IMG/VR virus record: IMGVR_UViG_3300023180_000123
Span: 1 to 43,144 of that record
Length of the DNA stretch: 43,144 nt
Source of the DNA: a virus
Direction: 5' to 3' (one strand)
The translations under genes were made by a program, and so were the position numbers. A model generated the notes under the pieces. It saw only the letters and a program-made list of their open reading frames with translations, searched no databases and was not told the DNA's origin. Each line of letters starts with the position of its first letter. Position 1 is the stretch's first letter. This document shows, one piece after another, positions 13,301-43,144 of the stretch.

Positions 13301-16300
13301 AAACTTTATTTTAGTACTATTTGTTCTTACTTTTTTGTTTTCAAGAATAGCAACCGCTTTTGCTGTGCGTGTAACTTCTCCGCCACCGCCTGTTACGGTT
13401 ACGACAGGTGCTTGTGTATATCCTGCACCCGAATCCTCAACAATAATTTGTCCAACGGTTGATCTACTAATGTATGCTTTTGCTGTTGCATTAACATTAC
13501 CACTTTGTGGCATACGTCCATTACCGTTTGGAAGCAATGCTGTTCCGTGATATGACTGACCAATAATGTAAGGATATGCTGGTTCACCATTGTTGTCGAT
13601 TGTTATAAAGTAAGCGTAAGTTCCACTAGGATATTCTGGTGTCCTTACAAATCTACCATTGTTTTCATCTAAATCTCCTAATCCAGAAACATATTCAAAG
13701 TCTTCAACATATCTACCATTAGGTGTAGAACCATCTGCTCTTAGTTTTGTTTTTAATCTATAACTGCTTGTAATTCTTCTAACACTTTGATCATTAGAAG
13801 TATTAAAACCGTAAGGTCCATAAATTGGGAATCCGTCAAATGCATAACCTACAATCGGTGAATGTACAGACGAATTTTTATCATACACCTTAATAGGATC
13901 GCTATGATAATGATATATTCCATCTTCTTGAGGATGTCCACTGCCGTCATCAATACCTAATTCCTCATGACTTTCAACTGCATTAATTGTATATGTTGTT
14001 CCGTTTAATGTTTCTGTTTCAGCCGCCTTAGCATTAAAGATTGCAACACCATTAACCGCAACAGCAACTGGTCCTAATGGTAGTTCTGTTTTAGTTGTTG
14101 GTACAGCAGGGAATCTTGGTATTTGGAAAACAAAGTTTTGCTTTTCAACATTTGTTTGTACAAATGAATGATCTGGAATACCTGTACTATCTACGTAGAA
14201 ATACAAGTTGTCATAGTCTGTTGTTACTAACTCTCTAAAAGGAGTTGTTTGAACAATGCTAGGTTTATTTTCTCTACCACCACTAATAACAATAATAGGT
14301 GCTTCTGTATATCCTGCACCTGGATCACTTATTTCAATCCTTGCTACATTATATTTGTAATTGTCAAACCAGTTTACATAAGGTTGTGATGTAACAAGAT
14401 CGCTCTTCTCATTAATAACATTCCAAGTTCCAGTTTCTTTATCAAAGAAACTAGGTAAGTCAAAGTCTGTTGTTCCAATAGGATTGTTTTCTAAATTATC
14501 ATATCCTATAACATATTCTCTCAATGTGCTTGAATACGGTTTAACTTCATCAATATAGTCTTGTAAGAAACTTGGATCTTGAATATTATAATTAATTTTT
14601 CTACTGAATCCTCCAAGATTATTTTTAATATCAATTAAACTAGTTTTAAATGCCCAGTCAATAAATGATTGCTCTGAAATAGCATAACGTAATCCAATAA
14701 AGAACATTTCATTCCATGCAAATTTAAGATCATCAACAAAAATATTCTTGTTTAGTACGTTAAGAATTAATCTAGTTTCTTCGTTTGGTTGCTCATCAAA
14801 TAAGTTTTGATCAAATGTTTCTTCACCTGCAAATCCAAAACTTAAACCTGAATAGTCAAATAAATTGTTATTAAATTTAATTGTACTATTTGATTTAAAC
14901 ATGATATCATAATCGTTGTTCCATGTTCCGTTAGATTCAACACGTTGTAAAATAACTTTATTACCATCACCTGCGTTATCAATCTGTACCAAGTCGCCAA
15001 CAACAGGACTAATTGTATCTAGTTTATATGGTGCAGAAATCTTAAAGTTTATAATGCTGTCAACGTTAAATCCGTCAACAATGTAATCTGCATAATCCCA
15101 GAATCTAGTCAAGTCAAATGTTTGAGTATTTGTTCTTACCCATTCACCAACAGCATCTCTCCATTCGTACATTGTCCAGTAGTTTCCTGCTGTTGAATCA
15201 GAATTTACTAACGCTTTAAATGGACGCATATGAATATTTCCAAATGTGTAATTGCGTCCTTCTCTTAAAACTTCAATGCTAGTTACTCTACCATCACTAT
15301 CAATTGTTGATCGAAGTTTGGCTCCTGTACCTTCTGCAGAAACTTCTACTTGCGGTGCTATTGTATAACCATAACCCGAATTAGTAATTGTAACCGATTT
15401 AATTCTACCATTAACAATATTTGCTTTTGCTGTTGCCTGTACTAGGTCTTGTGTTTTTAAGTTTTGTAAATCTTCAACTTCATCAATTTTAACATCGTAT
15501 TTTCCAGATGCGTCGTTTGGTTGAGGATCACTTACAAACAATCCACTAATGTCTTTTTGATCAACAATTCTATGTTTAGCCATTAAGTCGTTTGTGTATT
15601 TCATTAAAGCCTTGACTGCCTTTAATCTATTAACAAACATACTCTGTCTTGGTCTTGTAGAAATACCATATTTCTTTTGTGGCGGTAAGTTAGGATCAGG
15701 TACAGCATTACCCTGATCATCAAACCCTACTAAACTATCAAAGAACTTATTAACAATCGATGGGTAATCAATCTTGTCTTTTTGTTTTTCACCAACCAAC
15801 AACCATTCATTGTGTTCTGGAATGTCTGTTTTAATTTCTCTATATTGTACAGACAAACTTACATTATTATCACTTAACGTTGTTTTGATATTGCTAAGAC
15901 TGAAACTTTCTTTTGAAAGTAATTGTAAAGTCTTAAGTCCGTATGCTTGAGGACTAGCAATAATTGTTGCTATTTCTCTTGCAGGTAAATGTCTATTATA
16001 GTTTCCTTCAGGAATAATAACACTATTTCTTACCCAATAGTAGTATCTGTTAACAAAATTACCTGTTGATGGATTGTAAACTCTTTTTAACACATAGGTA
16101 TTGTCGTCATATTTTGTGTTTCCACTAAAGCCAGATGTAACACCCTCATTGGTGTCGGCAATAGCATTCCACTCACTTGGTAATAAATCTGTTTCTACCC
16201 ATTCGTAGATATCAATTTGAGAACCAGGAAACACTCCGCCCCAGTTATTCAATCGATATTCGATATCACCTTGCTCATACCATAAAAATTTTACAGAACT

Positions 16301-19300
16301 TAAATCCCACCATAACTCACCAACATGAGGATCAGTCCAGTGTGTTAGTCTATCAACATTAACATCTGTTCTATCGGATGCTGTATATGTTGCAGGATCC
16401 TTTTCGCTTTTAAAAGTAATTTCACCTTCAACCAAGTAAGGTAACTTGCCCTTAATTGGATCAATAGTTTCTAAGAAATCGACAACTTTTAATTTATCGG
16501 TTCTATACGTAAATGTTTTTCCAATGCTGTATGGATCTGTTAAATCATCCTGTTGTCTTAATGTGTTCCATCCTGCTGTTGCTTGTTTTTGATATACAAA
16601 CAATGATCCGGTATAATTTCCTTGAACAGGATCAGCGCCTGGTGCACCTATATAAATGCTTGTTTCACTATAAGCAAGTCCCATACCAAATTCATCATTT
16701 GGACCAGCGTTGCTGTTATTGAGTTTTTGTCCATAAACAAAGTAGTCACCTAATTTTGTATAAGTGTACGCTGTTCCAGAACCTTCAACCTTGTCAACAA
16801 TAGCAGTAGATCCTGCATCAAATGTTGTTGCTACATCTTTTTCACCACTGGCTGGGTCATTAACATATATCGTTCCAAATCTTGTAAAAGAATCATCATA
16901 CGCTTCTTTGTATTTGTCTACCGTTGTTGTAATTACATTTTTACCGCTTGCCGCACCAATTACAACAGATGTTCCTGTTGGATTTACAGCAAGTGTCGAT
17001 CCGAAACTTTCACCACCAGTTGCTTTTGGACTGGTTAATTTTTGTACGAAAGAGTACATATCTTTTGTACTTTCGTCTGACGTATTTTCAAATATATAAA
17101 CTTCGCCCTGGTTGGTTTCTGTGTCATCACCATATGGTGCACCAATTACTAGTGTTTCACCTTTTTTGCTAATTGCTAATGAGGTTCCTAATCTATCACC
17201 TGTTGCTAATTCACTTATTGTGCTTGTGTTAATTGTTTGTACTAGATCGTATTCATTTCCAACAAGTCTATAAACATAAACTGCCCCTGTATTAAGTTCT
17301 CCTCCGTTGTCTTTACCTGGTGCACTTATAACAAGTATTTCTTGATCGTCTGTCATTACCATTGAATAACCAAATTGATCATCTGCATTTAATGTTTCTG
17401 GATTTTGAATTGTTGGGAATTGTGCCACCTGCCAGTCTAGTGTGCTTCCGTCAGTTGCTGTTCCTAAAGTATAAGAATAAACTTTACCTGCATTGGTGTT
17501 TGCTCCAGGAGCACCGACATGCATTTTGGTTGCACCAATAGCAACCGAGAACCCAAACGCTTCGTTGTTTGCTGGTGATTGCGAAGCAATCACATATTCT
17601 GTTTCGTATAAATTACTAACCGAGTCGTATTTGCTAACTTTAACAATACCTTGATTACTAAATGCTGACGGTGTTGAAGCAATGTCGGCATAAATGAATC
17701 CTGGTCTAGTAACATCTGTTGTTTGTTTTACATTTGATGCATATGGTGCACCAGCGATTATTCTATTGCCATCGGATGTTACGTCAATACTAAATCCAAA
17801 CTTAGGACTTGTTCCTGCAACTAGATCATCACTTGGGTTATCACTAATTGTATAACCTTGATTTTGCTCTAGCGTAGCAATCGATGTATTTGTTTTTCTA
17901 CGTAGAATGTTTACAGAACCTTCATCACCAAAGTCAGGTGCACCAACAATAATTGTTCTACCTTGGTTAGCATACTTAATTACTTGTCCATAACGAATTC
18001 TATCAGCCGTTGCTGGTGCTCCGTATTCATTTTCAACAAATGCTTTTGTTTTTTCGTAAACTATCCATTTGCCTGTTGTGTCATTATCGGCCCAAATTTT
18101 CGAACCTTCTACAAATTCACTAACGTTTCTAACATTATTAATGTCATTTGAATTAGAAACCCTTGCATTTATAAATTCAATGATAGCACCTGTTGCACTA
18201 TCGTCTGCCAGGTTAACACTTAATAAATCTGTTGCTATTGTGAACGAAGTTAAATCGCGGATTTCTGTTACAACATGAACGCCGTTGATTTGAGGATCAA
18301 AGTCTTTAATAGATATTGTAGTTCCTTCAACCAACCCGTGTGGAATATTTGTGTGTAATACCATGCTTCCATTATCAATCGAAACAGGATTATCTTCTGT
18401 ATTAATTAAACGTGCATCACTAACAATTAATCTATAAATTGCCCATGTATCATTGTCGTCTTTTGCTACCCAAATTGTATCGCCTTTTGATAGAGTTGGG
18501 ACAACACTATTAGTTTGTAACTCATTTTTATTAAACAATGTCATATTAACATCGTCTAATCTTGCATATCCTGCATAAGGAAGTTTTAATACAGATGTTA
18601 AAGAAACTCCGTCTTCGTTAAAATTGTAAACCGGCCATGGTGTGCTAACATAGTTAGATGGCTTAACGGTTAACTCTCTTGGTAATACTTGAATAACATT
18701 ACTTGAAGTATCTGCTGTTCTTTTTGTGTTAACAAATTCATATGGTTGTGGATTTTCAACATTCAATCTTTCGTTAAGCGGTAATTCTAATTCTTTAATT
18801 GTAGAATTACTTCCTAAACTACCAATTCTAAATGCCCAAATTTCATCTACTTCAACGTCAGTTGATACTCCGTCAATTTCTAAACGCTGTATTTTATCTA
18901 TAGCATTCTTTGTGCCTTTTTCTTTAATGTATCCTTGATAAAATTTATATTGTGCAATATCGTCAACAACTAGATTATCTAAGTAACTGCGTTTTTGATA
19001 CCCAATTAAATGTTGTGCTAATTCAGTTGCTTCTGTATCAAAATTTTCGCTTTCTAAAGAATAAAAGTCTTCGTAACTATATGCTTTGTAATCTAGGTTA
19101 GGTAGTAATTCTGCTACAGGCTTGTCTCCGATAAAAACCCAGTCCTCATAGATAAATGCTGATTGTCCAGGTAAAAACTTAGAAGCACTATAAAACTTAC
19201 TTTTAAATCTTACAACGTCTCCGATGTTATAATCCCATCCTGGTTTCCAATCTTGTATCACTGCTTCATCGAATACAAATCCAGGTGTTACAAAGTCACC

Positions 19301-22300
19301 GTTCCAGTCACTTGTTTTAAATCCTACAAGTTTAATACGCTTTTGTCTGTATCCTGCTTCTTGATCATATAACACATCACCAAAAGAACTTCTGTCATCA
19401 AATACGATAACGTGTTCATGTTGTACAAGATTAAGAACAGCAAAATAAATTCCTCTTGCTGTGTCTTTAGGACTTAGATAAAATTTTCCTTTGGATCTAA
19501 TTGTTGAAATACTATCCTTAGGCATCGGATTACCGTTTGCAGTAAGAATACTATATTCATAAAAACTATTCAATACATTGTCGACCTGACCAGTTGTGTA
19601 ATTAAATTCAATTTGTTCAGCAAAAGGCGATAACGAAATAATTGTTCCTTCGGCCCATTTTTGTGTTACCCAGAATAAAAATTCTTTTCCGCTTAGATCC
19701 CAATTTTGCATTTGTAGGCTTTCTTTTTGATAATTGTCAAAAACAAAACCTAAACTTTCTAAATATTTTCCGTATCCAATAATAACGTCATAGACTTCTT
19801 GTATTCTTGTAAATTTTGTACCATATTGTACTTCAGTAATTCTATCACTAAATTTAGTTGCTTTGGTAACTTCTGCTCCGCCGCTTGTTGGAACTTCTGG
19901 TACAGAAGCAAATTTAGAAGAATCAAATGTTGATGTGCTAGTATGATTTTCTTTTACTCTATAATACTGATCTAAAAACTCAACAATTTGTCCTACACCA
20001 TAAAATTTTTCTTCATCCCATTGAACGGTTTTAGCCTGTTCTCCGCCAACATTAATTGCTGGATCATTTTTACTAAAGATAGGTTGAAAGATATTAAAGT
20101 AAGGTCTTAATTTATCATACCCTCGAAGAATAAATCCGTCGGTTGCTTTTTCAACAATTATACCACTGATCCTTGCACTTTCTACCGGATTAGATTTTCT
20201 TAAAACAAGTGTATAGTTTTCTTCTGGAAGAAAAATACTATTGTCAGCACGATTTGGATTTGAACTTTCCGCTAACACCCTTAAACGTTTTTTGTTTGCG
20301 AAACCGCCCAACTTATATGCTAGATTCATTGAAGTATTTGTAATTTGACTATAATACTCGTCATTTACATCTTTTCCTAAACCTTTTAGGAAATCTGTTA
20401 TCATTATATGATAACCTGTGCCTTTAAATCTAACATTATTATAGTATAACCCGTCAACTTTTACTTCAGGGAAACTTAATATTTTTCCACTATCTTTATA
20501 AATCAAGTTACCACTTGCTGTAATTACATTCTGATTTGTGTCAAATAATGAGCCAAAATACTTTGCTGGTCTCATTAATGCCATTGCAATTTGTAATGCA
20601 AAAGGATACCAACTAGATTTTCTCCACGCTGTTTCAGCAGGGCCTTGATCTCCATATTTCCAAGGATTGGTAACATTAACAATGCTAAATCCTTTTAGTA
20701 TGTTAACCCTTGATGGGTCAATTAAATCACCGTACTCGTCAACTGGAATATTTTTGCTTAATCCAGGTCTTGCATAAGTTTCGTCGATGTATGTTCCTGC
20801 AGGATCTTTAATTCTACCTGCTTCGATATCGTCCCATAAAATTTTGTTACCATTTGTATATGGTGCTTTACCATAAACATCGTCCCACCAAGTAGGCTTT
20901 AATGTCATACCTAACATTTCCCATGGATGCGTATGTGGACGATCGGTGTCAAAATAATGTTTATAAATTCCTCTCCAAAATCCTGGAACAGGTTTATTAT
21001 CTAAATTTACAACCGTATTGTAATTGTAACTAAACGGTTTTTCTAAATCTGTTGTGGTATTTGTTTCAGCATCAATATTAAAAATTGATTTCCACTGACC
21101 AAAATCGTTTCTCAAAACAGAATTAAATTCTGCTGATGTGTAACGTGTTTTTCTATATTGTCCTGGTATCTCGTCGAAAATATCTAAAACATTTTTATTA
21201 TAATCAACTTTAATATTATTGTAGACACGCTTTTCAAATTCTAATAGTAATGCATCACGCTCGTCACCGTATGTTTTTATTAGTGATCCGTCATGACCTT
21301 GTAACATTTCTTGTGGTGTTGCATAAGTGTTATCAACAAATATTTCTGGTTTGTACTTAGGATACAATCCTAACTTTGTAGGAGTGTTTGGAATTACATT
21401 ACCTGTTGTATCGTAATCAGTAATTGTAACTTTGTCGCCTGTTTTTAAAGTTCTTTTAATTGATACGGTATTATCAATACCATCAAATGTATAATCATCG
21501 TGTGCAATTAACTGCTCATCATTTAGATAAACGTAAATCGATCTATCACTAATTGTATCTAATTTGTATGCACTATCAATACCAAACACATTCTGTGTTG
21601 CTGTGTTTACGGTATAATTTCTAACAGAAACCTTTTTACCATATCCAGCCATATCACTATAAAAGTAACTGCTGTTTGGTTTTTTATCAACCCCTAGTGC
21701 ATATAAAATATTATCGACATCAACTTTTACATCGCCTGTTAATGCTGTTTCGTTTACTTTTTCTAAAAACTTGTCTTTAAAGAAAGAATAATCATTGGCG
21801 TTTTTTCTAATAGCATTTATAAAATTAACACTTTCAAGATTTAGTCCTACTAATGCTGAAAGTAACGATCCTTTATGCTTGACATATCGTAGACCGTCTC
21901 TATAGATATCATTTAAGTCTCTAGAATTATTAATACCATTTACATTACCAACTAGAGCAGAATTGTTTAAAAATATTGTTCTAAAATGATCTGTTACACT
22001 ACCAAGAGTAAATGTTTTTAAATCATTGTTTTCTGCATTGTTTGTTAAGTTAATTGGAGGCTCGTAGAAGCCTTGATCATTTGGTAATTGATCAGTTTTA
22101 ATTTTTAATGTAACTTTAGAATTTGCAGGAATAGCATTTATAAATGCTAGATTATAAACACCTCTAATAGTATCAATTTCTTTTGTAAAGTCTGTTACTT
22201 CTTTTAAAATCTTTCCCGAATATTCAACAACAATATCTAAATTATATTTCCAAGGTGTGTCAATACAAGTAACTGAAAGTGTTTTGGTTTCTTCAGTAAC

Positions 22301-24304
22301 ATTCAATATTTGTTGAATTCTCTGTTCGGTAGTTTTACCTTTAACAATCTGCCAACCGCTAACAAACAACGAAGTTCCGTCCTCGTTATTAATTTTTGCT
22401 AGACCGCTTGCAGTATCTACGTTATATTTTATTTCATTTGAAATGTAATTAAAAAGAGAATCGTCCCAATCAAAGTTAAATGTAATATCGCCAACGTTAT
22501 TAATATTCTGATAAGAAATAGGAAACCCTAATGCACTATCGTTGGTTCCGGTTCCTTTTTTATAACTTGCAATAGCGTTACCAATAAATGTTGTAGAAGG
22601 ATATGCTGTTTCATCGGAAAATGCAACACCGGTTGAATTGTACAATTCAAAAAGCGGAGATTGATTTAATGATGTTTTTTGTTGTCCTTTAATCCACTGA
22701 GTTCCGTTAAAATACCAACTAGAACCTTTATTATTTTTTCCGTCTTTTACAACAATACCTTGACCATTCGTAGGAGTTGTTCTTTCGATTAAATGAATTC
22801 TTTCTACGCCGTCATACTTTACTAGATCCACTTCGAAAATTTTACCTTTTACGGTAATGTCCGGATCAGCATTAAATGATACTAGCATTCCTTTTCTAAT
22901 TAACACTTCGTCAATATGATAACCAATTGCACCTTCGACATTGCTAAATGCATCTTTGGTGTTTGTATCAATTAGATCGATATTTTGTAAACCAGTTGTA
23001 GCAAAATTATGTAATTGTAAATTTGCTTTAAATTCTAAGATTGGTCTAATTGCTCTATAGTTTTCATCAAGCACAGGTGTTGCACGATTGTATTCTGCTG
23101 TTTTTTCGATTACATCTTTATGCACCCATCTATTGTATCTAGACCATGGATTTTTATCAATTGCCGCTCTATTGATTGTAACATATTCCGGAGTTAACGG
23201 ACTATTTTCTGTATCATCATACGGAGTATCATCAAATGGATCAACGTCAAATTCATAGTCCTGATTTTGAGAATAAGACTCAGGTGTTGTTAATTGGCTT
23301 TCGTCAATTAATTTTATCGATGACCCAACTCCCTCGACATAAAAGTTTTTATTTTTATATTTTGATGGAAGAACTTCGCCAATAAATTGAACACGCATTC
23401 CGTTAGTAAATTCAACATTGTTTTTACTTTTAAAAGTTGGCTTACCAATAATTTCTTCATCAACATTAATTTTAAAATCATCTTGAGCATTTCTTACTTC
23501 AAAATACCCTTGCATGTTCTGATGATATTGACATGCATAAAAAATTCTATCAGGTGCATCAATTGGCACCGTAATTTCAACAATACCAACATCTGTTCCG
23601 TTATTAGTAACGCCTGTATTATAACGATCACCAATTCCTGTTGTTAATGCTGTTTTAAGATTAAACGGATGTCCTTGGGCGTCGATTTCAAATTTATATG
23701 TTGCACCTCTGTATAAAGTTATAGTTGGATTTTTTGAAAATCCGTTTGGTGTAAACACATAAGCGTTTTGTCCATCATTAGTAACTTTATAAGTACTGAC
23801 CGATCCGCCAGCGTCACCTGATACAAGAACAGGAGATGGTCCTTCTGGCATCCAATAATATTGTCTGTAGTTTACAAACTTGTCAAAATCAAATAACGGG
23901 TTCCATGCATAATATTCTGATTCAAATAGTCTATCATGATTTTTTGTATTTCCGTTAAAAAATTTAACTTGATTAACTAGGTCATCGTATGTTGCTACCC
24001 ATTTAAAAACATCTTCTTTAGGTTCTTTGATTATTGCTGACGGTAGGAAGTTATATCTTCTTCTATTTGCTGTTGGCTCTGTAAGGTAGTTGTCGTTGGC
24101 TTTTGAATTTTCAGTATTTCTAGCACCAACAAAACCGTTAATTCTTTCAAGGGTGCCTGTTGATATTAAAGCGTCAAGGGTACTTCCAAGAAACTTTTTG
24201 TTTGCTTCCGTACGAAAGAACATAGGTAATAGATCAGCACTATTACGTAATTTGTCCTTGTTTTCTATATTTACAGGAGTACTTTCGTTCTCACTATATG
24301 CCAT
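10364..24304 (-). CDS. giant multidomain virion protein (4,646 residues; cupredoxin-like, FG-GAP and YHYH domains)
   Basis: A single uninterrupted frame of 13.9 kb immediately after gp6, where T4 has gp7 and gp8. Residues 20-165 form a baseplate-anchor-like region (LPMFFRTEANKKFL, LERINGF). Residues about 175-268 are a cupredoxin-like domain with possible copper ligands H212, C258, H261, M264 (CQYHQNM). Residues about 2105-2570 are a beta-propeller of FG-GAP/integrin-type repeats (IIVGAPDFGDEG, IIAGAPYAS, MHVGAPGANTNAG, LVISAPGKDNGG, LVIGAPYGDD, IYIGAPGAD). Three GAGYTxAP modules lie near 2975, 3325 and 3622. A YHYH domain has its motif at 3464-3467 followed by VGYAFDGFPIYGPYG. From about 3780 to 4250 there are repeated adhesin-like modules (GDGxTxxF). 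The product is probably a peripheral baseplate or fibre-network protein that binds host or matrix. No frameshift or stop was seen. The function is inferred. Confidence 0.85.
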   Translation of the reverse strand: MAYSENESTPVNIENKDKLRNSADLLPMFFRTEANKKFLGSTLDALISTGTLERINGFVGARNTENSKANDNYLTEPTANRRRYNFLPSAIIKEPKEDVFKWVATYDDLVNQVKFFNGNTKNHDRLFESEYYAWNPLFDFDKFVNYRQYYWMPEGPSPVLVSGDAGGSVSTYKVTNDGQNAYVFTPNGFSKNPTITLYRGATYKFEIDAQGHPFNLKTALTTGIGDRYNTGVTNNGTDVGIVEITVPIDAPDRIFYACQYHQNMQGYFEVRNAQDDFKINVDEEIIGKPTFKSKNNVEFTNGMRVQFIGEVLPSKYKNKNFYVEGVGSSIKLIDESQLTTPESYSQNQDYEFDVDPFDDTPYDDTENSPLTPEYVTINRAAIDKNPWSRYNRWVHKDVIEKTAEYNRATPVLDENYRAIRPILEFKANLQLHNFATTGLQNIDLIDTNTKDAFSNVEGAIGYHIDEVLIRKGMLVSFNADPDITVKGKIFEVDLVKYDGVERIHLIERTTPTNGQGIVVKDGKNNKGSSWYFNGTQWIKGQQKTSLNQSPLFELYNSTGVAFSDETAYPSTTFIGNAIASYKKGTGTNDSALGFPISYQNINNVGDITFNFDWDDSLFNYISNEIKYNVDTASGLAKINNEDGTSLFVSGWQIVKGKTTEQRIQQILNVTEETKTLSVTCIDTPWKYNLDIVVEYSGKILKEVTDFTKEIDTIRGVYNLAFINAIPANSKVTLKIKTDQLPNDQGFYEPPINLTNNAENNDLKTFTLGSVTDHFRTIFLNNSALVGNVNGINNSRDLNDIYRDGLRYVKHKGSLLSALVGLNLESVNFINAIRKNANDYSFFKDKFLEKVNETALTGDVKVDVDNILYALGVDKKPNSSYFYSDMAGYGKKVSVRNYTVNTATQNVFGIDSAYKLDTISDRSIYVYLNDEQLIAHDDYTFDGIDNTVSIKRTLKTGDKVTITDYDTTGNVIPNTPTKLGLYPKYKPEIFVDNTYATPQEMLQGHDGSLIKTYGDERDALLLEFEKRVYNNIKVDYNKNVLDIFDEIPGQYRKTRYTSAEFNSVLRNDFGQWKSIFNIDAETNTTTDLEKPFSYNYNTVVNLDNKPVPGFWRGIYKHYFDTDRPHTHPWEMLGMTLKPTWWDDVYGKAPYTNGNKILWDDIEAGRIKDPAGTYIDETYARPGLSKNIPVDEYGDLIDPSRVNILKGFSIVNVTNPWKYGDQGPAETAWRKSSWYPFALQIAMALMRPAKYFGSLFDTNQNVITASGNLIYKDSGKILSFPEVKVDGLYYNNVRFKGTGYHIMITDFLKGLGKDVNDEYYSQITNTSMNLAYKLGGFANKKRLRVLAESSNPNRADNSIFLPEENYTLVLRKSNPVESARISGIIVEKATDGFILRGYDKLRPYFNIFQPIFSKNDPAINVGGEQAKTVQWDEEKFYGVGQIVEFLDQYYRVKENHTSTSTFDSSKFASVPEVPTSGGAEVTKATKFSDRITEVQYGTKFTRIQEVYDVIIGYGKYLESLGFVFDNYQKESLQMQNWDLSGKEFLFWVTQKWAEGTIISLSPFAEQIEFNYTTGQVDNVLNSFYEYSILTANGNPMPKDSISTIRSKGKFYLSPKDTARGIYFAVLNLVQHEHVIVFDDRSSFGDVLYDQEAGYRQKRIKLVGFKTSDWNGDFVTPGFVFDEAVIQDWKPGWDYNIGDVVRFKSKFYSASKFLPGQSAFIYEDWVFIGDKPVAELLPNLDYKAYSYEDFYSLESENFDTEATELAQHLIGYQKRSYLDNLVVDDIAQYKFYQGYIKEKGTKNAIDKIQRLEIDGVSTDVEVDEIWAFRIGSLGSNSTIKELELPLNERLNVENPQPYEFVNTKRTADTSSNVIQVLPRELTVKPSNYVSTPWPVYNFNEDGVSLTSVLKLPYAGYARLDDVNMTLFNKNELQTNSVVPTLSKGDTIWVAKDDNDTWAIYRLIVSDARLINTEDNPVSIDNGSMVLHTNIPHGLVEGTTISIKDFDPQINGVHVVTEIRDLTSFTIATDLLSVNLADDSATGAIIEFINARVSNSNDINNVRNVSEFVEGSKIWADNDTTGKWIVYEKTKAFVENEYGAPATADRIRYGQVIKYANQGRTIIVGAPDFGDEGSVNILRRKTNTSIATLEQNQGYTISDNPSDDLVAGTSPKFGFSIDVTSDGNRIIAGAPYASNVKQTTDVTRPGFIYADIASTPSAFSNQGIVKVSKYDSVSNLYETEYVIASQSPANNEAFGFSVAIGATKMHVGAPGANTNAGKVYSYTLGTATDGSTLDWQVAQFPTIQNPETLNADDQFGYSMVMTDDQEILVISAPGKDNGGELNTGAVYVYRLVGNEYDLVQTINTSTISELATGDRLGTSLAISKKGETLVIGAPYGDDTETNQGEVYIFENTSDESTKDMYSFVQKLTSPKATGGESFGSTLAVNPTGTSVVIGAASGKNVITTTVDKYKEAYDDSFTRFGTIYVNDPASGEKDVATTFDAGSTAIVDKVEGSGTAYTYTKLGDYFVYGQKLNNSNAGPNDEFGMGLAYSETSIYIGAPGADPVQGNYTGSLFVYQKQATAGWNTLRQQDDLTDPYSIGKTFTYRTDKLKVVDFLETIDPIKGKLPYLVEGEITFKSEKDPATYTASDRTDVNVDRLTHWTDPHVGELWWDLSSVKFLWYEQGDIEYRLNNWGGVFPGSQIDIYEWVETDLLPSEWNAIADTNEGVTSGFSGNTKYDDNTYVLKRVYNPSTGNFVNRYYYWVRNSVIIPEGNYNRHLPAREIATIIASPQAYGLKTLQLLSKESFSLSNIKTTLSDNNVSLSVQYREIKTDIPEHNEWLLVGEKQKDKIDYPSIVNKFFDSLVGFDDQGNAVPDPNLPPQKKYGISTRPRQSMFVNRLKAVKALMKYTNDLMAKHRIVDQKDISGLFVSDPQPNDASGKYDVKIDEVEDLQNLKTQDLVQATAKANIVNGRIKSVTITNSGYGYTIAPQVEVSAEGTGAKLRSTIDSDGRVTSIEVLREGRNYTFGNIHMRPFKALVNSDSTAGNYWTMYEWRDAVGEWVRTNTQTFDLTRFWDYADYIVDGFNVDSIINFKISAPYKLDTISPVVGDLVQIDNAGDGNKVILQRVESNGTWNNDYDIMFKSNSTIKFNNNLFDYSGLSFGFAGEETFDQNLFDEQPNEETRLILNVLNKNIFVDDLKFAWNEMFFIGLRYAISEQSFIDWAFKTSLIDIKNNLGGFSRKINYNIQDPSFLQDYIDEVKPYSSTLREYVIGYDNLENNPIGTTDFDLPSFFDKETGTWNVINEKSDLVTSQPYVNWFDNYKYNVARIEISDPGAGYTEAPIIVISGGRENKPSIVQTTPFRELVTTDYDNLYFYVDSTGIPDHSFVQTNVEKQNFVFQIPRFPAVPTTKTELPLGPVAVAVNGVAIFNAKAAETETLNGTTYTINAVESHEELGIDDGSGHPQEDGIYHYHSDPIKVYDKNSSVHSPIVGYAFDGFPIYGPYGFNTSNDQSVRRITSSYRLKTKLRADGSTPNGRYVEDFEYVSGLGDLDENNGRFVRTPEYPSGTYAYFITIDNNGEPAYPYIIGQSYHGTALLPNGNGRMPQSGNVNATAKAYISRSTVGQIIVEDSGAGYTQAPVVTVTGGGGEVTRTAKAVAILENKKVRTNSTKIKFDRIKSIKNILNESAVDQYTSKKGQITYQLTFLPTLDKRDFDISINNETVYIENFDVSIKTSTEFTYKKQQGYITLKEPPEERATVRITYKKSINLMNAVDRIDYYYSPTDGMPGKDPAQLMTGVEYPGVLVQGLDFGVSVGWDGLPWFSHGWDTFSGGNTDYAFRADGSTQSFLLPYIPEDKQEINVYFDGVRQDPTNTATIIGDGNTQTFNLGITPADGVLVVFRESTSDGSLTPTDVNNLDTIIQGGNFAYSTATGARPEDISLDGDGFVTPDTSHAPEEVVPGQMFDAVDMKIYNSPADGSPIIETSRYFGDGTTLTFGFNRYPGTNDSIYVTVAGEYIHPDNYTINYEDKTITLNGIDAPETTELVTVQTLNVAGSKILERATFVGDGSSTEFLMSARYEDVKSAFVTVNGQVKDYVIRKNSETSGAIIDLVNPPVEANKVIQVVALSGVDKTFSEIKTDVFITDGSSIEYRLSQTPDKIEPFHSMAIVEANGERLKAPDTIYYVSNGITLDYLVSQDPSYPAFSLALGELEVHQNGVKLVPIADYQFDTATNLITFYSGNLEAGDVIAITILRNHDYEIKKHNDEDSTGAGYITLIGNSYNDSTGFEQGTEIRVTTFTNHDANLMRKEVFNGQLGGNYTIARRAVDSNYVWVELDGKPLVADRDYKVMDDGYTIYVDNKFEQLPTSRVVITSFSEDISYDAVGYRVFNDMLNRTHFKRISKQDITKLTQDLDIADTEIIVDDASFFETPSPERRVPGVIWINKERIEFYKIDGNKLQQITRGTLGTGVAQKYKSGTEVIDAGPTQTMPYKDTINVFEVVVRDGLPNGKQVHVLETLNITSSANAHDQVEVYVGGRKLQKPTISANPITKHNTEIAFDSNEISSFGVASDVIQVPEYTIEPVGDSVAKGYYKLVLRDLPVDGTEIKVIQRQGKVWYSQGTTTATNGVTLQRTDSPQSKFLLERTSGLPVINIRE

Positions 24305-34810: not shown

Positions 34811-35662
34811 ATGATTAGACAGAAATATTTAACGAATAAAGACTTGTTGCATGAAATTTGGAAAAGCAAGAACACGTTTTCCTCTTTTCAGGATGAAAAG
34901 TACGCTCAATACGATATTATCCTAGCAAGTTTAGACAAAGTAAACAGGCTTACACTAGCACAAGCCAAGCGTAATCAAGCAGAACGCATTGGTAAAGAAG
35001 CATACGCACTAGCAAAAGAAAACAAACAAAAAGTAAAACTAGCAGAAGTAACGCCTGATTGGAAAAAGATTGAAAAAACAGACTTAGTTTTTAGAATTAT
35101 GACATTTGATCATGTTCCTGAAGAACCAGGTCGTAAACGCAAGACCAAAACAACAGCAGATAAACACGCAAAATGCAACTTTCCTCCATTTCAACATTGG
35201 AAATATGACGAAAACGACAATTTAATTTGTGTTGGTAAAAGTCATTGGAAAGGCGGAGTACATAACGGGCAGTTTTCTGTTAGTCATGGTCGAATGACAG
35301 AAGATTTAGGACGAATGTTTCTAAAACTTGCTGATCGTTACGGTACACGGTCAAACTGGCGTGGTTACACATACAATGACGAGATGAGAGCACAGGCTGT
35401 GCTACAACTTTCACAGATCGGTTTGCAGTTTGACGAAAGCAAAAGTTTAAATCCGTTTGCTTACTACACAGCGGCTGTTACAAACTCGTTTACTCGTGTG
35501 CTAAACATTGAAAAGAAAAATCAAAACATTCGAGATGATATATTGCAAGAAAACGGATTGAATCCATCCTTTACTAGACAAAATGAAAATGTCTTTAAAG
35601 AGGATAAAGAGAAGTTAGCAGAATTTTATAAAACAATGAGAAAGCCAAAAGCGGATTATTAG
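34811..35662 (+). CDS. 55: late-transcription sigma factor gp55-like
   Basis: A 283-residue sigma factor that would redirect host RNA polymerase to TATAAATA-type late promoters. The sigma-2-like core is residues about 155-262: GRMTEDLGRMFLKLADRYGT, then the pattern N-W-R-GYTYNDEMRAQAVLQLS, and FDESKSLNPFAYYTAAVTNS followed by FTRVLNIEKK. It matches T4 gp55 at F-S-GYT-x-x-W-x-x-EMIADG, NFDETKYKNPHAY and the closing helix. T4 gp55 is 185 residues; the difference is an N-terminal extension of about 130 residues, lysine-rich with KRKTKT and a PPFQHWKYDENDN segment. Extended forms occur in other marine and rhizobial T4-like phages. It has its own sigma70-like promoter and is followed by a second promoter for gp47. 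Confidence 0.85.
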   Translation: MIRQKYLTNKDLLHEIWKSKNTFSSFQDEKYAQYDIILASLDKVNRLTLAQAKRNQAERIGKEAYALAKENKQKVKLAEVTPDWKKIEKTDLVFRIMTFDHVPEEPGRKRKTKTTADKHAKCNFPPFQHWKYDENDNLICVGKSHWKGGVHNGQFSVSHGRMTEDLGRMFLKLADRYGTRSNWRGYTYNDEMRAQAVLQLSQIGLQFDESKSLNPFAYYTAAVTNSFTRVLNIEKKNQNIRDDILQENGLNPSFTRQNENVFKEDKEKLAEFYKTMRKPKADY

Positions 35663-35663
35663 G

Positions 35664-35693
35664 TTGACAAACACACGTGGTTGACCTTATAAT
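35664..35693 (+). promoter_or_regulatory. consensus sigma70-like promoter for gp47-gp46
   Basis: TTGACA (35664-35669) and TATAAT (35688-35693), both perfect, are separated by 18 bases, directly after the gp55 stop codon. The TTGAC is repeated 17 bases on (35681-35685), and CACGTG sits between, so a regulator could bind the spacer. Transcription would start about 35700, just before the ribosome site GAGG of gp47. Confidence 0.75.
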
Positions 35694-35713
35694 TTTAATA
35701 ATTGAGGAAAAGT

Positions 35714-36739
35714 ATGGCTAAAAATTTATTTAAAAAGGCCGCAGTATTCACGGATATTCATTTTGGTCTTAAAAGCAATTCTAAAGTCCATAATGATGAT
35801 TGTGAACGATTTGTGGATTGGTATATTGAACAAGCAAAAGCAAACGGCTGTGATGTAGGTATTTTCACAGGCGATTGGCATCACAATAGAAGTGCGTTAA
35901 ACTTAACCACAATGGATGCTAGTTTGCGTTCACTGGAAAAACTAGGCAAGGCTTTTGACAATTTCTATTTCTTTCCAGGTAATCACGATTTATATTATAA
36001 AGATAAAAGAGAAATTCATTCTGTAGTATTTGGCAAGCACGTACCGGGTGTTACCGTTGTAAATGAACCTATGGTTATTGACGATGTTGCATTGGTTCCG
36101 TGGCTTGTTGGCGAAGAATGGAAAAATGTGGTCAAAATGAAGTGCCGATATATGTTTGGTCACTTTGAACTTCCCCATTTTAAAATGAATGCCATGGTTG
36201 AGATGCCAGACACTGGTGAAGTAAAAGCAGATGACTTCAAAAATCAAGAACTGGTATTCACCGGACATTTTCATAAGCGTCAAAACAACAAAAATATACA
36301 TTACATCGGTAACGCTTTTCCTCACAATTATGCCGATGCATGGGATGACGAACGTGGAATGATGATTTTAGAATGGGGAGGTCAACCACAATATATTGAT
36401 TGGCCGGATTGTCCAAAATATCGTACGGTAAAATTAAGTAACTTACTTGATAATACTGACAAAATTCTAAAACCAAACAATTTATATCTAAGAGTTACGC
36501 TTGATATTGATATTTCCTATGAAGAAGCAAATTTTATTAAGGAAAACTTTTCTAAACAATATGATATTAGAGAAATTAGTTTATTGCCAGACACTGAAGA
36601 TGCTGATGAAGCACTAACACTAGAAAGAGGCGAAATTGACTTTGAAAGTGTTGATCAAATTGTAACAGATCAAATAACAAAAATTCAAAGTGAACAATAT
36701 AGGCCTAATATTTTATTAGACATTTACAGGAACTTATAA
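35714..36739 (+). CDS. 47: recombination endonuclease subunit gp47 (Mre11/SbcD-like)
   Basis: A 341-residue metallophosphoesterase, the nuclease partner of gp46, acting in recombination-dependent replication and double-strand end processing. All metal-site motifs are present: D14-x-H16 (FTDIHFG), G53-D54 (GDWHHN), G89-N90-H91-D92 (GNHD), GHFELPH near residues 151-157, and GHFHKR near 180. Length equals T4 gp47 (339). An in-frame TTG at 35702 would add four residues, but the ATG at 35714 has a GAGG ribosome site seven bases upstream, so I use it. The gene is followed by gp46 after three bases. Confidence 0.93.
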   Translation: MAKNLFKKAAVFTDIHFGLKSNSKVHNDDCERFVDWYIEQAKANGCDVGIFTGDWHHNRSALNLTTMDASLRSLEKLGKAFDNFYFFPGNHDLYYKDKREIHSVVFGKHVPGVTVVNEPMVIDDVALVPWLVGEEWKNVVKMKCRYMFGHFELPHFKMNAMVEMPDTGEVKADDFKNQELVFTGHFHKRQNNKNIHYIGNAFPHNYADAWDDERGMMILEWGGQPQYIDWPDCPKYRTVKLSNLLDNTDKILKPNNLYLRVTLDIDISYEEANFIKENFSKQYDIREISLLPDTEDADEALTLERGEIDFESVDQIVTDQITKIQSEQYRPNILLDIYRNL

Positions 36740-36742
36740 TTC

Positions 36743-38527
36743 ATGTTTAAAATTAAAACCATAACGGTAAAAAACTTCATGAGTGTTGGTAATGCAACGC
36801 AGGCAGTTGATTTTGATAAAGCACACCTTACACTTGTTCTTGGTGAAAACATGGATTTAGGCGGAGATGATGCAGGATCACGTAACGGTACAGGTAAAAC
36901 TACAATTATTAATGCATTGAGTTATGCCTTATATGGCGAAGCATTAACAAAGATTCGCAGAGAAAACCTTGTAAACAAAACAAATGCCAAAGGCATGTTG
37001 GTAACCGTTGAATTCGAAGTTAACGGTAAAACATATCGTATTGAAAGAGGCAGAAAGCCTAACATTCTTAAGTTTTATGTTGAAGATGTTGAAACCGTTG
37101 CTGATGATATTGATGAATCACAGGGCGATAGTCGTAAAACACAGGAAGAAATTGAAAAACTATTGAACATGAGTCATACTATGTTTAAGCATTTGGTTGC
37201 ATTAAACACATACACAGAGCCTTTCTTGGCCATGACTCCAAACAATCAAAGAGAAATTATTGAACAACTGCTAGGTATTACTATACTTTCTGAAAAAGCA
37301 GAAAAATTAAAAGAACAACAGAAAAGTGTACGAGACGCTATTGCAGAAGAAGATGCAAAAATAAAAGGTATTGAAAGTGCTAACCAAGCCGTACAAGAAA
37401 GTATTAACAATTTAGATATTAAAAGCAAAGCATGGGACGCTAACCAGTCTGAAGAAATTGCTAGATTAAGTAAAGCGATTTCTAGTTTGGTACAAGTTGA
37501 TATTGAAAAAGAAATTCAAGCACACAAGGATCTAGAAATATGGACCAGTTCTAATAACGAACTAACAAGTTTACAAAAAGAAAAAGCAAGTTTAGAGTCA
37601 AGTATTTTACGTGCTGAACGAGAATTTAAAAAATATCAAAAAGATTTAGAGGATATTCAAAGTAAAAAATGTTTTACTTGTGGACAGGATCTACATGATG
37701 AAGCACACGCTTCACTAATGGCTGAAAAACAAAACGATGTTAATGAAAGCAAAACATATCTTGACGGAATACAATTACAACTTTCTGATGTTGTTAAAAA
37801 GATTGACGATATCGGTGATATTAACGGTAAGCCTAACACATTTTATGACAATGCGGAAGAAGCATACAATCACAGAAACAATCTAGCAAGTCTAGAAGAA
37901 CGCAAACGTGAAAAAGACGGTGAGAACAATCCATACACAGAGCAGATTAAAGAACTAAACGAAACTGCAATTAAAGAAGTAAGTTGGAACACAATGAATC
38001 AATTTACTGAAATGAAAAACCACATGGATTTCTTGTACAAACTATTAACAAGCAAGGATTCATTTATACGTAAACGTATTATTGATCAAAACTTGGCTGT
38101 GTTGAACAAACGTTTGCAGTATTATCTAGATAGAACAGGGTTACCGCATCAAGTTAAGTTTCAGAACGATTTATCGGTAGAAATTACAGAACTAGGACGT
38201 GACTTAGACTTTGATAACCTCAGTAGAGGTGAACGAAATAGACTCATTTTAAGTTTAAGTTGGGCATTTCGTGATGTGTGGGAAAACCTTTATCAAAATA
38301 TCAACCTATTGTTTATTGACGAACTTATTGATAGTGGTATGGATACCGCAGGTGTTGAAAGTTCTATTGCTATTCTTAAAAAGATGGCACGTGAACGTTC
38401 AAAAAATATATATCTTATTTCGCACAAAGACGAATTAAGTTCTAGGGTCAACAATATTCTAAAAGTAATCAAGGAAAACGGATTTACTTCGTATGAAACA
38501 GACACGGAGTTAAGCAACAATGTCTAA
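36743..38527 (+). CDS. 46: recombination endonuclease subunit gp46 (Rad50/SbcC-like ATPase)
   Basis: A 594-residue SMC-like ATPase that pairs with gp47. The Walker A is G45-SRNGTGKT (K52), the zinc hook is C310-FT-C313 (CFTCGQ) flanked by coiled-coil halves (about 190-300 and 320-430), the signature motif is LSRGERNRLIL near 493, and the Walker B is LLFIDELID near 520 followed by the D-loop S-G-MD. T4 gp46 is 560 residues, so the protein is complete. The complex is required for T4 host-DNA breakdown and phage recombination. The stop lies eight bases into the next small gene, so those are coupled. Confidence 0.95.
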   Translation: MFKIKTITVKNFMSVGNATQAVDFDKAHLTLVLGENMDLGGDDAGSRNGTGKTTIINALSYALYGEALTKIRRENLVNKTNAKGMLVTVEFEVNGKTYRIERGRKPNILKFYVEDVETVADDIDESQGDSRKTQEEIEKLLNMSHTMFKHLVALNTYTEPFLAMTPNNQREIIEQLLGITILSEKAEKLKEQQKSVRDAIAEEDAKIKGIESANQAVQESINNLDIKSKAWDANQSEEIARLSKAISSLVQVDIEKEIQAHKDLEIWTSSNNELTSLQKEKASLESSILRAEREFKKYQKDLEDIQSKKCFTCGQDLHDEAHASLMAEKQNDVNESKTYLDGIQLQLSDVVKKIDDIGDINGKPNTFYDNAEEAYNHRNNLASLEERKREKDGENNPYTEQIKELNETAIKEVSWNTMNQFTEMKNHMDFLYKLLTSKDSFIRKRIIDQNLAVLNKRLQYYLDRTGLPHQVKFQNDLSVEITELGRDLDFDNLSRGERNRLILSLSWAFRDVWENLYQNINLLFIDELIDSGMDTAGVESSIAILKKMARERSKNIYLISHKDELSSRVNNILKVIKENGFTSYETDTELSNNV

Positions 38528-38765: not shown

Positions 38766-39197
38766 ATGGAGTGGACTTATCAGGGCAAAATAGTACAAGA
38801 ACTTCCGCAAGATTGCGAAGGATTTGTGTACCTGATAACAAACACTACCAACAATCGCAAGTACGTAGGCAAAAAACTAGCAAAATTCAAAAAAACACGC
38901 CCACCTCTTAAAGGCAAGAAAAACAAAAGACGTTCAAAAGTGGAATCAGATTGGAAAGACTATTGGGGTTCCAACGATCATTTGAACGAAGATGTACAAA
39001 AACTAGGCCCAGAAAACTTCACACGCGAAATTCTTTACATTTGTAACAGCAGAGGCTTGATGAGTTACCTAGAGGCTAGAGAACAATTTGAACGCAGAGT
39101 ATTAGAGACGGATGAGTATTACAACGGAATTATTAATGTTAGAGTAGGCAGTTCAAAAATTCTCAAAGAAGCACTAGAAACTTTAGGCAAAAAATAA
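38766..39197 (+). CDS. GIY-YIG endonuclease-like protein
   Basis: A 143-residue protein with a GIY-YIG-type core: GFVYLITNTTNNRKYVGKK (residues 19-37) gives the V-Y and Y-V-G strands, and the segment SDWKDYWGSNDHL with REILYICNSRG and E-A-R-E-Q-FE-R-R follows, as in Seg-like free-standing homing endonucleases and in similar small proteins of marine T4-like phages. Catalytic Arg and Glu candidates are present. It could be a mobile nuclease or a domesticated one. It lies directly upstream of a 0.5-kb structured non-coding stretch, which would fit an intron-associated or intergenic homing element, but I see no intron core I can defend. Confidence 0.75.
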   Translation: MEWTYQGKIVQELPQDCEGFVYLITNTTNNRKYVGKKLAKFKKTRPPLKGKKNKRRSKVESDWKDYWGSNDHLNEDVQKLGPENFTREILYICNSRGLMSYLEAREQFERRVLETDEYYNGIINVRVGSSKILKEALETLGKK

Positions 39198-41230: not shown

Positions 41231-41464
41231 TTAGAGTATTACTTGTCCAGTTTCCTTGGACGATTCAACGTGTGCACCAACCATTTTAATTATTAGTTCA
41301 CGTTCTTCGGGAGTGATTCCGTAGGCTTGTTCTATTGTCAATCCACCTCGCATATACCAGCAAAGATTAACTAGTGAATCTACTATGTCCTTGCTTTCCT
41401 TATCCATACTCTGGACCAGATCGTTGATTTCAGAAAGCGAGAGTGAACCTATCTGGAAACGAAA
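41231..41464 (-). CDS. -1 frame extension of the gp26-like gene (frameshift-expressed tail-assembly domain)
   Basis: A frame shifted by -1 from the gp26-like gene runs from just after a TGA (41477-41479) to the TAA at 41231-41233. It adds 77 residues after the slippery site: FRFQIGSLSLSEINDLVQSM, then DKESKDIVDSLVNLCWYMRG, GLTIEQAYGITPEERELIIK and MVGAHVESSKETGQVIL. It is well-formed helical coding sequence with no start codon before the gp26 stop; the only ATG in frame is at 41407, inside a conserved-looking region, and would give just 58 residues. The C-W-Y-M-R-G-G plus P-E-E-R-E-L pattern resembles second-frame parts of tail-assembly chaperones. The likely product is a 363-residue fusion with the gp26-like protein. 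The T4 counterpart is uncertain. Confidence 0.72.
   Translation of the reverse strand, partial: FRFQIGSLSLSEINDLVQSMDKESKDIVDSLVNLCWYMRGGLTIEQAYGITPEERELIIKMVGAHVESSKETGQVIL
41416..41456 (-). promoter_or_regulatory. stem-loop downstream of the slippery site
   Basis: On the minus strand CCAGAT (41456-41451) pairs perfectly with ATCTGG (41421-41416) across a 29-base loop. It starts seven bases after the slippery heptamer, the distance usual for frameshift-stimulating structures. A further TTCA/TGAA pairing is possible inside the loop. Only six base pairs are certain, so stimulation is inferred. Confidence 0.45.
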
Positions 41465-42321
41465 AAATTTGAGGAATCAAAAATAATCGGAACTTCAGTC
41501 GACTCCGGTGCTCCTTTTTCAACGTACACTTTTGGAATTGACACCTTTTGTGCTTTAACTTCAAATGGTGCTCTTTGCGTTTCCGAGTGTTTGGTAATTG
41601 CTTCAAACGTTTCAACATCTAGATCGTTAATAAACTCACTGATCTCTTTTGGATTTTGAACATCACCTTCTGGTGTTTTAACTGAAACAATCTGCTGTGA
41701 AATACCATTTAATCGTGTTGCACTTAATTTTTTAAATCCGTCTTGGAACACTTTGATCTTGTCGTCTTCCGACATGTCAGGATTTCCAAGGACCTGTGCA
41801 ATACGTTGTGTTTCCAACGTTTGTTGATACAATTCAGTTTGTTGTTTATAATTTAGAGGAACAATTTGAAAAGTCAACTCACCGATTGTTAAGTTTGAAT
41901 CATATGTATGACCTTGCAATTGATCAAGCACTTTGCGTAGATCAATTTCAGTTTCAAGTTCTTCGTCAACATTTGGAACCTTAAAACTAGCGGTCATTTT
42001 TTCACCGTATGTAGCGATACGAATAGCAATTAAAATAGCATCAATATCAATTGACGGTATTTCCCATGGATTCTCGATTAGCGGACAGCAGTTTTTAACC
42101 ATGGAGGTTGTTGCTTCTCCATTTAGTAGTGCATCCGGCGTTTTAATTAATAGTTCGTCTCTAGCGGTCATTGAATAGATTGGTAATTCGCCTGAACCAG
42201 ACTTTTCAAGTGGGTTGCTAGAGTAAAATCTACCACCCGAAGGTAGTGTTAGATAAATTTTGGGTTGTCGTGCATATTTTTTTAATATGCTTTGACCTTT
42301 TTGTATGTTTTGTTGTTCCAT
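41449..42321 (-). CDS. gp26-like baseplate hub/tail-assembly protein (frame 0 product)
   Basis: A 290-residue protein resembling the T4 gp26 family ('T4 baseplate' proteins) of marine phages: KYARQPKIYLTLPSGGRFYS near residues 15-35, PIYSMTARDELLIKTPDALL near 47-67, NGEATTSMVKNCCPLIENPW, and a helical C-terminus with PEGDVQNPKEISEFINDLDV. The same fold type is found in tail-assembly chaperones such as lambda gpG-like proteins, and this gene ends like them, in a slippery site leading to a -1 frame. T4 gp26 is 208 residues. A late-promoter-like CATAAATA lies 45 bases upstream. The exact T4 equivalence is less sure than the role in tail or hub assembly. Confidence 0.7.
   Translation of the reverse strand: MEQQNIQKGQSILKKYARQPKIYLTLPSGGRFYSSNPLEKSGSGELPIYSMTARDELLIKTPDALLNGEATTSMVKNCCPLIENPWEIPSIDIDAILIAIRIATYGEKMTASFKVPNVDEELETEIDLRKVLDQLQGHTYDSNLTIGELTFQIVPLNYKQQTELYQQTLETQRIAQVLGNPDMSEDDKIKVFQDGFKKLSATRLNGISQQIVSVKTPEGDVQNPKEISEFINDLDVETFEAITKHSETQRAPFEVKAQKVSIPKVYVEKGAPESTEVPIIFDSSNFFVSR
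41464..41470 (-). other. -1 ribosomal frameshift slippery site A AAT TTT
   Basis: Read in the gp26 frame the sequence is TCA AAT TTT TTC. The heptamer A AAT TTT has the canonical X XXY YYZ form; slipping back one base re-pairs AAT/TTT with AAA/TTT and enters the -1 frame that continues to 41231. The site sits in the only window (41476 to 41452) where the two frames are both open, between the TGA of the -1 frame and the TAG of frame 0. Confidence 0.78.
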
Positions 42322-42400: not shown

Positions 42401-43144
42401 ATGGCAGTGAGAGTTGATATTCCGGATATTGGACCAATTGAAATACAAGGAGCCGCGGAAGAGGCTACCCTAAAAGCCATTTTGAGCGAAATGAAAGCAC
42501 AAGGAAGCCGTCCAGGAGGTGGTGGCGGTGGTTCTGGTGGCGGTGGTAGTGGTCTAGTTGGCGCCGCAGTGGGAGCAACAAAACTAGCCAAATCCTTAAA
42601 TCCTCTAATGATTGCTGTAGGCGGAGTAAGCAAGGTATTTGGTGGAATATTTAGAATTGCTGGTAGACTAGCAGGAGCGTTTTCTGACACGGTTGACATG
42701 TTTGCCAAGGGCAGACCGTCAATGGTTGATTTTACATCCGCTGTTGCTGATGCTGTACCGGGAGCCATTAAACCATTTGCTGATGCACTGAATTCGGTAA
42801 TCAAGTTACTCTATTCTAACTTTACAACCTTTGAAAAACTAACACAAAGTGGTATTGCATTAGGTGACCAAATTGGTCAAATGCAAACGGGTTTTAGAGG
42901 AATAAGTTTAACAGCAGAAGAAATTGGCGGAGCACTTGGACCTGTATCCGATGGATTAGCAAGTTTAGGTACTGCATCAAAAGGTGGTGCCGTAGCACTT
43001 AATATTTTAAAAGGGCTCACACCAGAACTTTCGATGCGTCTAAGAGAGTATGGTATTACGGTAGGCGAACAAGCAGAAAAGGTAGCAGAATACACAGCAC
43101 AAAACGCATTAGGTTTAAGAATGCGTACAACAAACGAACAACAA
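42401..43144 (+). CDS. virion structural protein, possibly tape-measure-like (N-terminal part, cut by window edge)
   Basis: The frame is open from the ATG at 42401 to the window end, giving 248 residues. Residues 1-38 are a short acidic/amphipathic start (MAVRVDIPDIGPIEIQGAAE), followed by a glycine-serine linker at about 39-52, then a long Gly/Ala-rich, hydrophobic helical stretch (LVGAAVGATKLAKSL; GGVSKVFGGIFRIAGRLAG) and further alpha-helical sequence. This composition is typical of tail tape-measure or hub-associated proteins, and it lies next to the gp26/frameshift gene as tape-measure genes do next to tail-assembly chaperones in many phages, though here divergent. A TATAAATA late promoter precedes it. 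Tape measure is a hypothesis; the rest of the gene is needed. Confidence 0.6.
   Translation, partial: MAVRVDIPDIGPIEIQGAAEEATLKAILSEMKAQGSRPGGGGGGSGGGGSGLVGAAVGATKLAKSLNPLMIAVGGVSKVFGGIFRIAGRLAGAFSDTVDMFAKGRPSMVDFTSAVADAVPGAIKPFADALNSVIKLLYSNFTTFEKLTQSGIALGDQIGQMQTGFRGISLTAEEIGGALGPVSDGLASLGTASKGGAVALNILKGLTPELSMRLREYGITVGEQAEKVAEYTAQNALGLRMRTTNEQQ

Follow-up and report, generated by a model that had tools for sequence, protein, structure and literature searches.

A probable -1 ribosomal frameshift at the end of a T4-type tail-assembly chaperone gene in an uncultured phage and its relatives

The gp26-like gene, its overlapping frame and its neighbours

The DNA analysed here, 43,144 nucleotides long and referred to as the window, represents positions 1-43,144 of the IMG/VR virus record IMGVR_UViG_3300023180_000123, from an uncultured phage that is a distant relative of T4. 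On the minus strand, it carries an open reading frame of 290 amino acids (41449..42321), with homologues in related phages, that matches the Pfam family T4_baseplate (PF12322; 42.9 bits versus a cut-off of 24.5) and phrog_150 (E = 3e-12). We refer to it as gp26-like, and its product is the putative short form of a tail-assembly chaperone (TAC-N). This zero frame ends at a TAG (41449..41451, minus strand), while the -1 frame stays open past that stop as far as a TAA at 41233-41231. Because a TGA (41477..41479, minus strand) shuts the -1 frame upstream, entry into it is confined to the 25 bases 41476-41452.

Two overlapping heptamers on the minus strand are candidate sites for a slip into the -1 frame, i.e., T_TTT_TTC at 41461..41467 and A_AAT_TTT at 41464..41470. 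Either slip would yield the identical protein of 363 residues, made up of 287 + 76 residues if it occurred on T_TTT_TTC, or 286 + 77 if on A_AAT_TTT. A preceding sequence-only reading of this DNA had predicted a 363-residue fusion, a length that we reproduced, and its coordinates, checked for the ORF, its stop, the TGA, the TAA, the A_AAT_TTT heptamer and the arms of a downstream stem, agree with the sequence. The extension that would be read after the slip (TAC-C; 41231..41461, minus strand) contains 76 codons plus the TAA and carries an LCWYMRGG motif; conservation and an AlphaFold model, in which it is helical, both support it. Profile scans with the extension alone yielded no Pfam, PHROG or NCBIfam family, and no chaperone family. 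The window yielded no tRNA gene.

The short form and the extension were modelled separately using AlphaFold, with pLDDT values of 85 and 89 respectively; in the latter, helices were predicted at residues 11-40, 45-49 and 53-73. When the model of the short form was compared with BFVD using Foldseek, the best match was a T4-like baseplate hub assembly protein (E = 9e-20, TM = 0.85), and gp26 of Aeromonas phage 25 was also recovered (E = 2e-3). Searches of the PDB by sequence and by fold gave nothing usable for either part. The BFVD matches of the short form also included uncharacterised proteins of 450-550 amino acids from the Ralstonia phages RSF1 and RP12 and the Erwinia phage Special G, as well as a match in phiEaH2. 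Going by these fold matches, the RSF1, RP12 and Special G proteins are candidates for the tail chaperones of phiKZ-like phages; when the genomes of phiKZ, phiEaH2 and Special G were searched with a sequence profile, nothing was recovered.

Next to the gp26-like gene, on the opposite strand, is a divergent gene cut off by the end of the window (42401..43144, plus strand). It has no confident family match, its PHROG match to tape measure proteins being weak (E = 0.03). Its full-length counterpart in the relative L002 (1597-3921) encodes 774 amino acids, compared with 711-933 in most of the relatives listed, where it is flanked on one side by the chaperone gene and on the other by the portal gene. 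The L002 protein contains GSLVEVHDQEAIVPK, which we take to resemble a motif of tape measure proteins. It is plausible that the divergent neighbour is a tape measure protein.

Elsewhere in the window, genes at 34811-38527 (plus strand) for a late sigma factor and for SbcD/SbcC (gp47/gp46-like) adjoin the tail genes and mark the phage as T4-related. About one-third of the window is taken up by one uninterrupted frame of 4646 codons (10364-24304, minus strand), flanked by tail-fibre-like genes on one side and a baseplate wedge gene on the other. A protein of 143 amino acids (38766-39197, plus strand) matches a PHROG named NAD synthetase along with several homing endonuclease families, and the former name seems doubtful.

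Conservation of the second frame and the slippery site

A scan of IMG/VR yielded 177 matching stretches, the best 80 of which, with identities down to 41%, were retained, and the extension was located in these by tblastn with the -1 peptide of the window. A homologous extension was present in the -1 frame relative to the gp26-like ORF in all 80 of these relatives (the best 80 of 177), in most cases exactly 78 codons long when counted from the first slipped TTT. The residues FFR were invariant in 43 representatives, and several residues of LCWYMRGG were nearly so. Between the window and the relative L003, there were 13, 6 and 31 substitutions at the first, second and third codon positions of the -1 frame, i.e., 31 of 50 at the third, and in close pairs most changes fell at third positions of that frame. 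The conservation of the extension, together with the clustering of changes at its third positions, indicates that the second frame is real coding sequence, and the pattern in the overlap goes far beyond chance. The check proposed in the sequence-only reading, i.e., whether homologues keep a slippery heptamer and a -1 frame with the W-Y-M-R-G extension, thus came out positive in 80/80 relatives; neither a separate gene lacking a slippery site nor a continuous frame was seen among close relatives.

Inside the overlap, the heptamer of the form X_XXY_YYZ in zero-frame phase was T_TTT_TTC at 47/47 distinct junctions, and the base that follows it was an invariant G throughout the IMG/VR set. The A_AAT_TTT heptamer originally singled out was present at 28 of the 47 junctions and was rejected as the conserved site; the earlier proposal of a slippery site within the overlap holds, but its place is one codon further on, at T_TTT_TTC. 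The second Phe codon was always TTC, though TTC accounts for just 118 of the 544 Phe codons (22%) in these genes, and the codon before TTT ended in T in all 43 cases sampled, compared with 58-76% for matching pairs of T- and C-ending codons elsewhere in the same genes; the junction sequences share ancestry, and these counts are given without a probability. Judged by codon choice, T_TTT_TTC is held synonymously.

The same arrangement extends to cultured phages. Direct inspection of the sequences showed T_TTT_TTC with a -1 extension in Atu_ph07, Phosso, PA5oct, 121Q, Vibrio phage 2.275 and GAP32, and also in P-SSM2, S-PM2, KVP40, W-14 and RaK2 (11 phages), while HTVC008M and phiM12 carry a variant heptamer, T_TTT_TTT, with a -1 extension, giving a total of 13 cultured T4-related or jumbo phages. 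With hhalign, the profile of the extension aligned with the jumbo-phage extensions at a probability of 99.7% (E = 9e-26), and with the C-termini of cyanophage and T4 gp51 at a moderate 70% (E = 4e-5).

The second frame might instead be a separate small gene with a start of its own, whose translation is coupled to the gp26-like stop. The annotators of 121Q, Phosso, GAP32 and Vibrio phage 2.275 list it as a separate hypothetical gene, and in the window there is an in-frame ATG 44 bases beyond the zero-frame stop. However, about half of the 47 distinct junctions contain no ATG, GTG or TTG in the first part of the -1 frame, and the FFR residues precede any start, yet are invariant in the 43 representatives. 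In T4 gp51, moreover, the C-terminal part is covalently joined to a gp26-like part. A separate gene would also leave both the invariant heptamer and its phase unexplained, and we consider it highly improbable.

A co-varying stem downstream of the heptamer

The sequence-only reading had also described a six-base-pair stem downstream of the heptamer. Its 5' arm, CCAGAT (41451..41456, minus strand), pairs with ATCTGG (41416..41421, minus strand), and it is a possible stimulatory element. In the window alone this stem is no better than chance: the longest stem in our test was 5 bp (p = 0.75 versus synonymous-codon shuffles), and the folding energy gave z = -0.71. As a co-varying trait of the family, the stem did find support. 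The relatives L003 and L004 carry CCAGGT/ACCTGG where the window has CCAGAT/ATCTGG, a compensatory change that may be a single event. In 30 representatives of less than 85% identity, considering stems that start 5-8 bases after the heptamer, the longest stem averaged 7.9 bp versus 5.3 bp after synonymous-codon shuffling, and the highest mean in 500 shuffled sets was 6.5 bp.

The distance to the stem partner takes one of several values (i+j near 31, 38, 49 or 50). In twelve sequences with a distant partner, an 11-bp helix was 97.7% paired, with a covariation of 0.351 versus 0.194 +/- 0.022 in shuffled sequences (0 of 500 as high), and sliding the partner position destroyed it; this subset was picked after the folds had been seen, so that these values are descriptive and no independent proof, whereas the shuffle test spans all 30 representatives. 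A structure that stimulates the slip would be expected about 5-9 bases past the heptamer; many relatives have a co-varying stem, while that of the window itself is not significant.

These features bear on whether RNA polymerase, rather than the ribosome, slips on the run of six T, so that a mixed mRNA population would give the long form. The site is indeed a homopolymer run, transcriptional slippage on such runs is known (reviewed in PMC5009743), and in HTVC008M and phiM12 the runs reach 7-8 T. Polymerase slippage would, however, be expected to favour longer runs and to need neither a codon phase nor a stem so spaced, whereas at 47/47 junctions the run is kept at six T plus C in codon phase, and in many relatives a co-varying stem lies downstream at ribosomal spacing. 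We therefore rate this explanation as very unlikely, marginally more so than a separate gene. Finally, although a single-base indel in a continuous frame, by sequencing error or gene decay, would look the same in any one sequence, the same -1 relation recurs in a further 80 contigs and in the deposited genomes of 13 phages, and its conservation already refutes this idea, to which we assign a negligible probability.

Proposed mechanism and relation to known chaperones

Ribosomal frameshifting is the explanation that we favour: on the comparative sequence evidence, the gene very probably encodes a short and a long T4-type tail-assembly chaperone by way of a -1 ribosomal slip near its end. Most ribosomes would stop at the TAG at 41451, giving the 290-residue short form, while a minority would slip back by one base on the TTT TTC of T_TTT_TTC, with tRNA-Phe re-pairing from UUU_UUC to UUU_UUU. 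The slipped ribosomes would read on to the TAA at 41231, giving a 363-residue long form (TAC-NC) with the predicted helical W-Y-M-R-G domain. In phage lambda, gpG and gpGT bind the tape measure protein, and the T domain binds the tube protein (PMC5009743). By analogy, the coat around the tape measure protein would consist of many short and a few long copies, the latter recruiting tail-tube subunits through their additional C-terminal domain. The comparisons show the homology, the conserved -1 frame and heptamer, the co-varying stem in many relatives and the two-gene equivalent in T4; that ribosomes slip here, how often they do so, and that the products act as chaperones is what we infer. The G/GT-like frameshift suggested by the sequence-only reading gains support from the 80/80 relatives and 13 cultured phages, and the products are best read as a short/long chaperone pair that would be the counterpart of lambda G/GT. 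According to the PA5oct record, mass spectrometry detected the portal and the divergent neighbour; the gp26-like protein carries no such mark, as expected of a chaperone absent from virions.

As in lambda (Xu, Hendrix and Duda 2004; PMC5009743), there would be a short form and a rarer -1 long form, and the gene adjoins a possible tape measure gene. The differences are that no lambda-type chaperone family was matched by sequence here, that the heptamer is T_TTT_TTC, and that the gene is divergent from its neighbour, whereas that of lambda lies just upstream of the tape measure gene. In the chaperone locus of the Vandenendeviridae and Andersonviridae (PMC12846349), TAC-N likewise ends with a poly-T -1 site and the extension is annotated as a separate hypothetical gene, but the phage families and the motif (GTTTTT) are different, and the tape measure gene lies downstream of the chaperone gene.

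T4 lacks the slippery-site arrangement: gene 26 ends in GAGTTCTTTGAGTTACTATAA, and gene 51 is separate and divergent. PF12322 matches both T4 gp26 (short) and gp51 (long), and the C-terminal part represented by phrog_634 is present in gp51 only. Single sequences of T4 gp26 and gp51 gave no direct hhalign alignment with the family profile, and their link to the family runs through PF12322, phrog_150 and the fold matches. In the Campylobacter phage CP81 (NC_042112.1, 23086-24200), two neighbouring open frames of one strand each match PF12322, and the second also has a weak match to phrog_634 (gp51-type C-terminal part). Neighbouring same-strand PF12322 frames, the second again with a weak gp51-type C-terminal match, were also observed at loci L107, L109, L110 and L118. 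Double frames of the CP81 kind are possibly duplications like that of T4 26/51.

The 2022 abstract of Vladimirov, Gautam and Davidson is said to name T4 genes 26 and 51 and to describe frameshifting as kept in several T4-like groups. According to texts that cite this work, some T4-like phages encode the short and the long chaperone in a gene each and use no frameshift (Vladimirov et al. 2022, cited in PRFect, PMC10885494), and poly-T frameshift signals occur in TAC-N genes of T4-like phages (Vladimirov et al. 2022, Virology 566:9-15, cited in PMC12846349, 2025). The link between gp26-type hub proteins and frameshifted chaperones, which the sequence-only reading had thought would be notable, thus holds but, going by that citing text, is not new, and the present gene is a further example rather than a new kind. 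As far as those texts describe the T4-like chaperones (gp26/gp51), the shared features are an N-terminal part of the PF12322/phrog_150 type and, encoded in the -1 frame at a poly-T, a C-terminal domain of the gp51 type; T4 differs from the present lineage in having two separate genes, and here the C-terminal domain is longer (76 codons) and carries LCWYMRGG. A 2016 review called T4 the exception to G-T frameshifting (PMC5009743); two genes in T4 versus one shifted gene in KVP40 and cyanophages fits the later published resolution, as the citing texts give it. We found no earlier description of the reach into jumbo phages or of the co-varying stem, although Vladimirov et al. (2022), known via citing text, may include both.

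Our results correct an annotation: the second frame, which is often listed as a hypothetical gene of its own or as a short "gp51", most probably encodes the last part of a fusion protein. They also widen the range of the T4-type chaperone frameshift, adding an uncultured lineage and jumbo phages such as 121Q, RaK2, PA5oct and Atu_ph07, and they supply a candidate stimulatory stem as a testable element. On balance, we lean towards the view that the T_TTT_TTC signal is ancestral to the T4-related and jumbo phages, and that T4, and apparently CP81, replaced it by gene duplication. The ancestral signal may have included the co-varying stem, overlying the first stretch of the C-terminal coding sequence and re-paired in several registers, with its partner about 31, 38 or 49 bases away. 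In cyanophages and marine vibriophages, gp51 has been reported to lack its first ~200 residues (Sullivan et al. 2010, PMC3037559). A frameshifted gp26-gp51 gene would account for so short a gp51. An ancestral signal that was lost in T4 would, if true, also explain these reports.
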